Assembly: GCA_009780855.1 (NCBI GenBank)
Contig: WQZG01000004.1
Span: forward strand, 1-64,000
DNA: 64,000 nt
Source: Treponema sp.
GTDB taxonomy: Bacteria; Spirochaetota; Spirochaetia; Treponematales; Breznakiellaceae
Direction of reading: 5' to 3'
Part shown: in pieces, positions 56,682 through 63,595 of the stretch
How the letters are laid out: every line of letters starts with the position of its first letter
Position numbering within the stretch: the stretch's first letter is position 1
The notes under the pieces: model-generated
Told to the model about the DNA's origin: nothing
The model's database searches: none
Seen by the model: only the letters and a program-made list of their open reading frames with translations
Translations under genes and position numbers: made by a program

Positions 56682-56839
56682 AAAATCTCCCTGGTTTTAT
56701 AATTAATGTTTGTCTACATTATGGACAGACACTAATTATACAAAAATTTTAATAAAAAATCAATTTTGTACTTGATCATACGCTGTATATGGTGTATGCT
56801 GAAAAAAAACACGCTATATATAAAGGATTTGGGAAAATA

Positions 56840-59800
56840 ATGAAAATCGACCGCCTGTTTACCGGGCCCAAAACGGGACCCTACAAGGATATAGTCTGGG
56901 AAAAAAGAAAGAGCGAAATCCGCAACCCTGACGGCAGAACCATTTTCTCGGAAGAAACTGTAATTGTTCCGTCCTCCTGGAGCCAGATTGCCGCAGACAT
57001 TATAGCACAAAAATACTTCAGAAAAGCCGGAGTACCGTCTGAAAAAATCTACGAATGGAAAAAATGGGCCTGTGCAGATGGTTCATCTGATCCGTCGGCT
57101 CCTGCTGATCTAAGAGATCCGCAGGATCTCACGGACCCGGGAAATGTCCTGCCTGCCGACGGCGCCGAGCACGATGCCCGCCAGGTATTCCATCGTCTGG
57201 CCTATACCTGGATGGAATGGGGCAAAAAGAACAATTATTTTGATTCACCGGAAGACGAAAAAGCTTTTTATGACGAGACCTGTTACATGCTGGCCCGCCA
57301 GATGGCCGCGCCCAACAGTCCGCAGTGGTTTAACACCGGACTGTATTCAGTATACGGAATAGACGGTCCGGCCCAGGGCCATTTTTATTTCGATCCGGCA
57401 CAAGGCAAAGTGGTAAAATCCGACAGCGCCTACAAGAGGCCTCAGCCGCATGCGTGTCTCCCGGCGCACTCTCTTATCAGTACGCCAAAAGGACTAATTT
57501 CCATAAGCGAACTGGTTAAGAAGAATGCATCCGGAACAGAAGTATTTGATAAAGACGGTATTACAAAAATAATAGCGGTCAAAGAAAACGGCATAAAGCC
57601 TGTAATCAGGGTAGTACTTAAAAATGGCAACAGCCTGGAAGCTACTCCGGATCATCTTGTTCTGGCATTTGACGGCGAAGAAGAATTTTCAAAAGAACCA
57701 AAATGGATTGAAGCAGGTAAATTGCATAACGGAATGAAACTTATGCAGATAACCGGTACCGCAGTTAATCCCGCGTTAAATTGCACAGAATTGGAAGTAA
57801 GTGAGGCAATTCTTGCAGGCTGGCTGAGCGGAGACGGATTTGCCGGACAATACAACGGAACCAATACTTCCTGGACTATTGAATTTATGACAGCAGGCGA
57901 TGATGAATATAATTATCTGATGCCGCATATTCAGAATGTATTCCGGGATATTCATTATCATGTGTCATCAGTTGAAACCAAAAACGAAACGCTTAATCTG
58001 CGGCGGATAAGACTGTACGGAAAAAAACTCCAGCCTTTTATAGAAAAATATGAGGCTGATAAACGCGGCCTTGATATTAAGATTCCCGATATAATATTAC
58101 AGGGCGGCAAAGAAATTGCGGCTGCGTATCTGCGCTCCCTTTTCCAGGCTGACGCAACTGTCCGCAGCCACAAGGGAAATAATGATTCATATGATGTTGT
58201 TTTAGGCAGCATATCAATTGATCTTATCCACAATGCGCAGCAGCTTCTTGCAAATCTTGGTATATACAGCCGTATTTCGTTATGCGCGGATTCGCGGGAA
58301 GACCGTCATGTTTATTATCAGCTGATAATTGCATATAAGAGTGAAAGAAAAAAATTCCAGGGCATGATTGGTTTTATATCGGAAGAGAAACAAATAAAAC
58401 TTTCAGACTCGCTGCAAACAGATATACGCGGGAAAATAATTCCGGCTGTTCGTTATGAACAGGTTGTCAGACTTGAATATCTTGGTGAAATGCCGGTTTA
58501 TGATATCCAGACTCAAAGCGGAAATTTCCTGGCAGGCAATATCGTAGTTCACAATTGCTTTATCCTCTCGCTCAAGGACGATCTGGTAAATGAAGGCGGG
58601 ATAATGGATCTGGTCACGCGCGAGGCAAGGCTGTTTAAATACGGCTCCGGCACAGGATCAAATTTTTCCGCGATAAGGGGCCTTAACGAAAAACTCTCCG
58701 GCGGCGGGGTTTCATCGGGGCTGCTGTCCTTCCTAAAAATCGGCGACAGGTCTGCGTCGGCAATCAAGAGCGGGGGTACTACGCGGCGCGCGGCAAAGAT
58801 GCTGACTCTGGACGCGGATCATCCGGATGTGGAAAAATATATTGCCTGGAAACAGGAAGAAGAACACAAGGTAGCTTCGATGGTCACCGGTTCCAGGACA
58901 ATAAAAAAACATATCGAGGGAATCAAAAAAGCGCTTGCGGCATTTAGGGGGCCGGAGGCGGATAAATTTAACGCAAATAAAAATTACGATCTTGCCTCTG
59001 CCCTGCGCAGCGCGCTTACGGATAATATTCCTTCATCGTATATTTACCAGATATTGAGAAGACTGGAACAGGGCGACACAAAAATCAATCCGGCAGTTTT
59101 TTCAACAGCCTGGGATGATGAGGCATACAATACGGTTTCCGGCCAGTCTTCGAACAACAGCCTCCGCCTTACCGATGAATTTATGAAAGCGGTTCTGGAG
59201 GACAAGGAATGGAACCTTACCACCCGCATAACCGGAGAGACCGTAAAAACACTAAAGGCCAGAGAAATATGGGACAAGACAGCGCAGTCGGCCTGGGCCT
59301 GCGCGGATCCCGGCCTGCAGTTCCACACCACTATCAACGACTGGCATACCTGTCCGGCCGGAGGCGAGATACGGGCTTCCAATCCGTGTTCGGAGTATAT
59401 GTTCCTCGACGATACGGCCTGCAATCTGGCTTCGATTAACCTGTCGCTTTTTTACAGCAGCGAAACTAAAAAATTTGACGTGCAGGCGTATCTCCACGCG
59501 ATAAGAATATGGACAACCATTCTTGAAATATCGGTGGTCATGGCCCAGTTCCCGTCATCAAAAATCGCAGAGCTGTCCTACGAATACCGCACACTTGGTC
59601 TCGGTTACGCAAACCTGGGCAGCCTGCTGATGATCATGGGCCTGCCCTATGATTCGCCTGAAGGCCGCGCGATCGCGGCTTCGCTTACCGCCATGCTTAC
59701 AGGAGAAGCGTATACCCAGTCGGCGCGCATGGCTGCCGGGCTCGGCACATTCGCGCGCTTTGATGAGAACAGGGAAGCAATGCTGCGTGTAATACGGAAC

Positions 59801-61456
59801 CACCGCAGGGCATGCTTCAATAGTCCGGTAAAAGAATACGAAAAACTCCATACAATTCCGCAGGGCATTGACCAGGAAAAATGTCCGGCATATCTGCTTG
59901 ACGCGGCAAAACAAACCTGGGATACCGCCCTCCGGCTTGGCGAAGAACACGGGTACCGCAACGCGCAGGTTACTGCCATAGCGCCTACCGGAACCATAGG
60001 CCTCCTTATGGACTGCGATACTACAGGAGTCGAACCGGACTTCGCACTGGTAAAATTCAAGAAGCTCGCCGGAGGCGGTTATTTTAAAATCATAAACCAG
60101 TCGGTGCCGCCGGCTCTTAAGGCCCTGGGTTATAAAGATTCAGAAATTGAAAGAATTGTCTGCTACGCGACCGGACATAAAACTTTCGCGACTTCCCCGG
60201 TAATCAACAGCGAGAGCCTGGCCTCAAAAGGTTTTAGCCCGGAAAATATTAACGCGGCGGAAGCCGCTGTCGCCTCGGCAATGAATCTGGAAAGCGTTTT
60301 TAATCCGTGGATTTTGGGGAAAGAATTTTTTGAAAAGAAACTTAAAATTCCTGAGGCAACCTACTCAACACCCGGGTTCAGCCTTTTAAGGGCTCTGGAC
60401 TTTAGCGCGGAAGAAATTGAAAAGGCGGAAACCTATACCTGCGGAACCATGGGTCTTGAGGGAGCTCCGGTTTTAAAGAAGGAACACCACGCTGTTTTTG
60501 ACACTGCGACGCCTTCGGGAAAAAACGGGAAGCGCTCGATTCCATGGACAGCTCATGTAGACATGATGGCCGCTGTACAGCCTTTTGTTACCGGGGCAAT
60601 TTCAAAAACCATAAATATGCCCAATTCGGCAAATTACGAAGATGTAAAGGGCGCCTACATTATGGCCTGGAAAAAAGCGCTCAAGGCAGTAGCGCTGTAC
60701 AGGGATGGTTCCAAACTCTCGCAGCCGCTGTCTTCCTTTGCTCCGGGCACAGACCCGCTCGCGGATACAATCCTGGGAGTGGAACATGATTTAAATTACG
60801 GTTACACCCCGGGAGTCAGTCCGGACAGGAGAAAGAGCCGGGTAAGGGGCGAGCGTAAGTCCCTGCCAAACAGGCGCATCGGTTATACGCAGAAAGTTAA
60901 AATCGGCGGACATTCGATTTTTACACGGACCGGCGAATACGAAGACGGCAAGCTTGGGGAAATTTTTGTTGATATGCAGAAGGAAGGCTCTGCCTTCCGC
61001 ACCTTACTCAACAGTTTTGCCATAGCCGTTTCCCTGGGGCTCCAGTACGGAGTGCCGCTGGAAAAATACGTTGAACAGTTTACGTTTATCCGGTTTGAAC
61101 CTAACGGCATGGTGCAGGGGCATGAATATGTAAAAATGGCTACCAGCGTCATTGACTATATATTCCGCGACCTGGCGATCAGCTACCTCAAGCGCAGCGA
61201 CCTGGCCCAGGTAAAGCCGGAGGACCTTCTGGCTACCGGAACAAAAAGCAACGGGACAAGCTCCACCCATACGCCTTCTGAACCTGTCATGGAAAATTTT
61301 ATGCAAAAATACGGCCTGGCAAACGCCCAGATACTGGAAGCCAGGATCAAAGGTTACGAAGGCGAGGCCTGCCCCAATTGCGGTTCCTTTACCCTTATTC
61401 GCAACGGAACCTGCATGAAGTGCGATACCTGCGGCGGAACGACAGGCTGCAGCTAA
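56840..61456 (+). CDS. nrdJ: Vitamin B12-dependent (class II) ribonucleotide reductase, intein-containing
   Basis: [92 protein letters not shown]-terminal ACPNCG...[14 protein letters not shown]. Start 56840 preferred to 56789. Confidence 0.95.
57455..58555 (+). mobile_element. Intein with LAGLIDADG homing endonuclease domain inside nrdJ (367 aa)
   Basis: Begins at Cys ([20 protein letters not shown]), ends ...NIVVHN|C; block [12 protein letters not shown] and second [14 protein letters not shown]. Confidence 0.93.
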
Positions 61457-62615: not shown

Positions 62616-62644
62616 TTGCAAAAAATACAGTTATGGTTTATATT
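62616..62644 (+). promoter_or_regulatory. Putative sigma70 promoter upstream of the AbiF-like gene leader
   Basis: TTGCAA, exactly 17-nt spacer, TATATT. Confidence 0.6.
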
Positions 62645-62650
62645 AAAAAT

Positions 62651-62722
62651 GATAGGACCCCCCCGCACCTCTCCAAATCTGTTTTACAGGTTTGTGAAGT
62701 GTAACAGTGGGGGGACATTTTT
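62651..62722 (+). ncRNA. Candidate structured ncRNA or regulatory leader preceding the Abi_2/AbiF gene
   Basis: GATAGGACCCCCCCGCACCTCTCCAAATCTGTTTTACAGGTTTGTGAAGTGTAACAGTGGGGGGACATTTTT: outer C7/G6 stem, inner CAAATCTG-TTTTA-CAGGTTTG stem, trailing T-run. Confidence 0.55.
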
Positions 62723-63595
62723 ATGGCTACAATAAAACCACCTACAACTTATAAACAACAAATTGAGAAACTTCGATTAAGGGGTTGTATAATTGCAGAT
62801 GAAAGCCAGGCCATTGAAATACTTTCAAAAGTAAATTATTACCGCCTAACAGCTTACTTTTTACCATTTAAACAACCAGACGAAACTTACAGAGCCGGAA
62901 CTGACTTTAATACTGTATATCAAATATATGAATTTGACCGAAAAATTCGCAATTTAATGTTTTTGGCCATTGAAGAAATTGAGATCAATCTTAGATCATC
63001 ACTTGCCTATTATCATGCTCAAAAATACGGTGCTTTAGGATATTTAGATAATAAAAACTACTACCCGAAACATGATCATACAAAATTTTTGTCCAGAATA
63101 GATGATGAAAAAAAGAAAAGAATAAAAGAACCTTTTGTTCAGCATCATTTAAAAAAATATGGTGGTATTTTCCCGATTTGGGTAATAATCGAATTATTCA
63201 CATTTACAACGTTATCACATTTTTATGCAGATTTGCCGATAGATGATCAAAAATATATTGCAAGAAAATTTTATAAAACCCATAATAAGACACTTAGGAG
63301 TTGGTTAAGATGTTCTACAGATTTACGAAATTTTTGTGCTCATTTTGGCAGATTATATTATAGAATTTTCACCTCAATACCTGATGGTATACCGGAACTT
63401 GATAAAAGTAACGAGCGAAGTCTTTTTGCTGTAATAATGGTACTGCGAAATCTTTTCACTGATCCCGATAAATGGAATAATGAAATATATAAAAAAATTT
63501 GCTCATTAATAAATGAATATTCTAAAATAATTAATTTTTATCACATTGGTTTCCCACAAGATTGGGAGAAAAAATTAATGAAGTATATTGTTTAA
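62723..63595 (+). CDS. Abi_2 / AbiD-AbiF-family abortive infection protein (HEPN)
   Basis: PPTTYKQQIEKLRLRGCIIADESQAIEILSKVNYYRLTAYFLPF; EFDRKIRNLMFLAIEEIEINLRSSLAYYHA; HEPN RNFCAH (Rx4H). Confidence 0.88.
   Translation: MATIKPPTTYKQQIEKLRLRGCIIADESQAIEILSKVNYYRLTAYFLPFKQPDETYRAGTDFNTVYQIYEFDRKIRNLMFLAIEEIEINLRSSLAYYHAQKYGALGYLDNKNYYPKHDHTKFLSRIDDEKKKRIKEPFVQHHLKKYGGIFPIWVIIELFTFTTLSHFYADLPIDDQKYIARKFYKTHNKTLRSWLRCSTDLRNFCAHFGRLYYRIFTSIPDGIPELDKSNERSLFAVIMVLRNLFTDPDKWNNEIYKKICSLINEYSKIINFYHIGFPQDWEKKLMKYIV

Follow-up and report, generated by a model that had tools for sequence, protein, structure and literature searches.

The 72-nt leader directly upstream of the Abi_2 gene in the window (the whole 64-kb stretch of DNA analyzed here) belongs, judged by its sequence and predicted fold, to the known AbiF/abiF-RNA systems, which are type III toxin-antitoxin-like, as a divergent member. 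We put at roughly 85% the probability that the two form a type III toxin-antitoxin module of AbiF and abiF RNA, operating by the mechanism proposed below. Table 1 gives the parts of the locus.

Table 1. Features of the AbiF locus, in window coordinates
Feature	Position	Strand	Remarks
Sigma-70-type promoter TTGCAA-17-TATATT (predicted)	62616..62644	+	TTGCAA 62616-62621, TATATT 62639-62644; 9/12 consensus matches; conserved position
Predicted abiF-type antitoxin RNA / toxin mRNA leader	62651..62722	+	72 nt; transcription start predicted; covariance-model match
C7 run	62658-62664	+	
P1 5' arm CCCCCC	62659..62664	+	Partner 62709-62714; P1 covaries in relatives
P2 5' arm GCAC	62665..62668	+	Partner GTGT 62699-62702
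P3, variable inner hairpin CAAATCTG-TTTTA-CAGGTTTG	62674..62694	+	Fold; CAAATCTG 62674-62681, loop TTTTA 62682-62686, CAGGTTTG 62687-62694; 8 pairs
3' bulge AACAGT	62703..62708	+	Between P2 and P1; counterpart of the bulge in the RF03085 consensus
G6 run	62709-62714	+	
P1 3' arm GGGGGG	62709..62714	+	Sole SD-like sequence, 8 nt 5' of ATG
Terminal T-run ACATTTTT	62715..62722	+	Intrinsic-terminator-like element; abuts ATG at 62723
Abi_2 / AbiD-F HEPN protein, 290 aa	62723..63595	+	Pfam, PADLOC, 8vz6; motif RNFCAH

The protein matches Pfam Abi_2 (E = 6.8e-52) and PADLOC AbiD (E = 5.2e-98), and the sole relative found among solved structures is 8vz6 (E = 1.5e-29), the PbAbiF-AbiFr complex of Zilberzwige-Tal et al. 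(Cell 2025). An AlphaFold model (pLDDT 92.6) superimposes on 8vz6 with a TM score of 0.84 and finds no other significant structure match. These sequence and model comparisons place the protein clearly among the relatives of PbAbiF, whose structure was solved with its ncRNA bound; the likeness, in fold and catalytic residues, is one of the proteins alone. The catalytic motif (residues 202-207) is intact and fits the pattern R-N-x-x-x-H, with R202 and H207 invariant across 13 homologues and aligned with R210 and H215 of PbAbiF, a double mutant of which is reported inactive (PMC12373285).

The first-pass annotation had described an outer C7/G6 stem, an inner 8-bp hairpin with one G-T pair, and a T-run directly before the ATG, and all three are present. 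It overlooked the P2 helix (GCAC/GTGT) and the 3' bulge, the features by which the abiF-RNA plan is recognized here. The folding energy of the leader is -27.9 kcal/mol (z = -3.0 versus shuffles). P2 covaries in the relatives (e.g. G-C becomes A-U in 13 sequences). P3 was dropped as a covarying helix and classed as variable, with a single double change, found in three sequences; relatives have a short loop or different hairpins at its position. The T-run 3' of P1 is conserved among 30 aligned RNAs. A terminator scan of the window passed over the site, an outcome that the length of the stem and its interruptions probably explain.

A covariance model was built from an alignment of 25 relatives' leaders, with the window left out; run against all 64 kb, it matches the window leader and nothing else (43.2 bits, E = 2.8e-9). 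The same layout can be seen by eye 5' of Abi_2 homologues. In an alignment of 30 sequences the pairing holds in 86.3% of cells; double changes number 46 versus 14.4 in shuffles, the covariation score is 0.386 versus 0.151 and is reached by 0 of 500 shuffles, and the number of pairs with a double change is reached by 38 of 500. This alignment was made to fit the structure, and its rows, like the loci, are related, so that the P values are optimistic. Sliding the pairing partners abolishes the covariation signal. As a held-out set served seven homologues that had been collected by protein similarity, retain their 5' side intact and are absent from the model; every one has an RNA match upstream (below E = 1e-3 in five). 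Matches also lie 5' of alphaproteobacterial, cyanobacterial and Listeria-phage Abi_2 homologues; a search with the model at the related lactococcal locus L078 found no such RNA. Covariance upstream of Abi_2 homologues was one of the checks suggested in the first-pass annotation, which named a lack of conserved structure there among the signs against it. The outcome was the opposite: at most homologues tested the structure is conserved and covarying. Conservation extends to certain unpaired positions: AACAG on the 5' side, CUC in the loop, and the bulge. A reading of the conserved loop as a mimic of the 16S anti-SD was considered and dropped (CACCUCC occurs in 2 of 30 sequences, CACCUC in 9).

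Rfam does not report this RNA: a search of the window gave no match to abiF (RF03085), whether cut off at the gathering threshold or relaxed to E = 10, and the 37-bit threshold of this family is passed by 3 of 20 relatives' loci. The RNA shares with the RF03085 consensus P1, one spacer base, a 3-bp P2, a loop, and a 3' bulge of about 6 nt, and differs in its extra P3 hairpin, its bulge sequence, a P1 of C6/G6, and its sub-reporting score. At two relatives, L036 and the upstream copy in L003, RF03085 and the new model match the same place. These doubly matched relatives and the shared P1-P2-bulge plan are among the reasons for regarding the window RNA as a divergent abiF RNA. Its bulge sequence is unlike that of most relatives, and L050 and L053 have the same kind of bulge. 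In this subgroup the bulge, UAACAG, is identical to the UAACAG that other members have as their 5' consensus; the subgroup's own 5' stretch is UGAUAG.

The locus predicted here has an experimentally tested counterpart in AbiF and RCd22 of the C. difficile phages phi027/phiC2, in which a promoter-driven structured RNA and a terminator precede the Abi_2 protein (PMC12373285). Neither system has a second promoter, both proteins have the motif R-N-x-C-A-H, and the window protein is 38% identical to phiC2 AbiF. RCd22 contains two abiF motifs, with a separate terminator and RBS (PMC12373285), whereas in the window a single motif is present, and its P1 helix runs into the T-run and adjoins the ATG; the model of the window's relatives matches the RCd22 locus at E = 0.6 only. 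AbiD1 of L. lactis is also of the Abi_2 family, with a terminator in its leader and repressed expression, but it has a separate RBS and a separate stem that masks it (PMC2661086).

Two variations were seen among the relatives. Two tandem RNA copies precede one Abi_2 gene in L005 (1322-1490) and in L003 (2776-2960), and recall the two motifs of RCd22. In L018, L019 and L021 a different leader lies about 100 nt 5' of the Abi_2 genes: behind a TTGACA/TATATT pair it reads GATCGTGTTGCGGAGGTTATGAACCAAGGCGACC..., then a GC hairpin and T8. The model does not match it, nor does any Rfam family convincingly; it is possibly a second class of AbiF-associated RNA.

The promoter elements that had been proposed, TTGCAA and TATATT with a 17-nt spacer, are all present. 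By itself such a match occurs at chance frequency in the window (8 found versus 8.1 expected). It is credible because the same distance from the RNA is kept elsewhere: a pair with at least 9/12 consensus matches stands at the expected distance in 23 of 28 homologous loci (6.25% of shuffles), and one with at least 10/12 in 16 of the 28 (0.8% of shuffles), these loci being related to one another and not independent. The predicted promoter lies 5' of the RNA, and none stands between the RNA and the toxin gene, the P1-P2-bulge RNA being directly 5' of that gene and abutting its ATG.

In the mechanism we propose, the promoter would drive a structured RNA of about 72 nt, terminated in most cases by its own P1 helix and T-run. 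The free RNA would bind the AbiF HEPN protein and block its RNase activity. Occasional read-through would give a toxin mRNA with the antitoxin fold in its 5' leader, where P1 would hide the G-run that could otherwise serve as ribosome-binding site, a step to which we give even odds. Some presumed signal, acting by opening the fold, by halting RNA synthesis or by titrating the RNA, would then free the RNase, and the cell would arrest. The present analysis contributes to this proposal the conserved, covarying RNA, the promoter position, the intact catalytic motif, and the lack of any other SD; published relatives contribute toxicity, RNA-protein binding and read-through transcription. C. difficile AbiF is toxic, its RNA terminates prematurely with read-through, RNA and protein bind, and neutralization works in cis and in trans (PMC12373285). 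Toxicity, read-through, binding and neutralization are expected, by homology, at the window locus too. The suggestion of an RNA antitoxin, made in the first-pass annotation, fits the C. difficile system, with antitoxin activity attributed by homology.

The leader might instead be a cis-acting attenuator or translational lock only, without antitoxin activity in trans. That P1 and the T-run resemble a terminator and hold the sole SD-like sequence speaks for this, and in L. lactis the AbiD1 leader, with its terminator, represses translation until a phage protein activates it (PMC2661086). Yet a terminator has no need of the conserved unpaired 5' AACAG, loop CUC and bulge, in 8vz6, the nearest homologue of known structure, the protein is in complex with an ncRNA, and RCd22 acts in trans (PMC12373285), so that we consider a purely cis-acting leader improbable. 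Less probable still is a guide role, in which the RNA would lead the HEPN protein to targets in the manner of crRNA and Cas13. AbiF and Cas13 have been proposed to share an ancestor (PMC12165695), and the first-pass annotation had entertained a guide-like ncRNA, but this suggestion finds no support at the locus: neither an array (from reading and the ORF listing) nor a spacer-like segment was seen, the variable segment is a self-paired hairpin, and the 290-residue protein is a full-length match to single-HEPN AbiF, with no second HEPN domain as in a Cas13-like protein. Hardly any weight is left for a chance hairpin or ordinary terminator. The promoter and terminator scans were at chance in isolation and Rfam was negative; against this stand the match by a model built without the window, the covariation, and the conserved promoter position.

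The probable AbiF/abiF-RNA module of the window has an unusual, compact layout, in which the P1 3' arm ends 8-13 nt 5' of the ATG, found in 12 of 28 loci. In these the mean anti-SD pairing energy is -9.2 kcal/mol for the arm and +2.4 for the spacer, versus -6.0 and -6.3 in the other 16, whose 19-41 nt spacers usually contain an SD (exceptions are L011, L010 and L037); the P values of 8e-5 and 5e-5 ignore relatedness, and the start codons were picked by the analyst. The corresponding window values are -9.3 and +3.7 kcal/mol, computed, like the others, with the common bacterial anti-SD, since a pattern search of the source assembly did not find the 16S 3' end. Long ORFs of the window are enriched for SD sequences (35% versus 13%). 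Ensemble folding shows the window's P1 3' arm as paired; about 11.7 kcal/mol are needed to open it, or 7.8 when the 5' arm is left out. In the protein tree 11 compact and 2 long-spacer rows fall in one clade, with full support for the clade as a whole.

The earlier identification of the G-run as the likely Shine-Dalgarno region agrees with these results: it is the only SD-like sequence in the window leader, as in the compact loci. The same finding is in keeping with a translational-control hairpin, though not as an alternative to an RNA antitoxin; the two roles are compatible and may both be true together. The data suggest a further role for the antitoxin helix, as a mask over the ribosome-binding site. 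The stronger statement, that in compact AbiF loci one helix is antitoxin core, terminator and mask over the toxin's sole SD, could as easily prove wrong as right. The compact layout was not found in the AbiF literature searched, a search that lay outside the central Cell 2025 study of AbiF; that study has its own AbiF covariance models, cited in PMC12804078, and these may include the compact subgroup or already describe the layout.

In the source genome a single Abi_2 gene stands beside the single strong RNA match; a second match (E = 0.0027) resembles an ordinary terminator. Among 203 genomes of the source organism's family, 22 contain a match; the 25 matches comprise 14 adjoining an Abi_2 gene, 3 that are low-scoring and terminator-like, and 8 orphans, that is, without a detectable Abi_2 gene close downstream. 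The orphans (L040, L041, L044, L045, L048, L051, L053 and L056) are apparently intact abiF-type RNAs. The toxin frame of L044 reaches a stop after 12 codons and that of L048 after 10, and these codons resemble an Abi_2 start; in L045 the ORF that follows the orphan RNA, 3' of 1557, resembles by eye a DUF4065/Panacea-type protein. ORFs 3' of the window locus resemble housekeeping genes, also by eye, and at 56789-61456 the window has a ribonucleotide reductase-like ORF of 1555 aa, apparently with an intein (again by eye).

AbiF is of broader interest as the proposed relative of the Cas13 ancestor, and the abiF RNA family is here extended beyond the reach of Rfam with a model tested on held-out loci. 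In the compact group a single helix may underlie the antitoxin structure, the termination of transcription and the control of translation. If this wiring is true, any one molecule could either hold the antitoxin fold or be translated into toxin, but not both, and the switching on of AbiF becomes testable through point mutations that alter the ribosome-binding sequence while keeping the stem.
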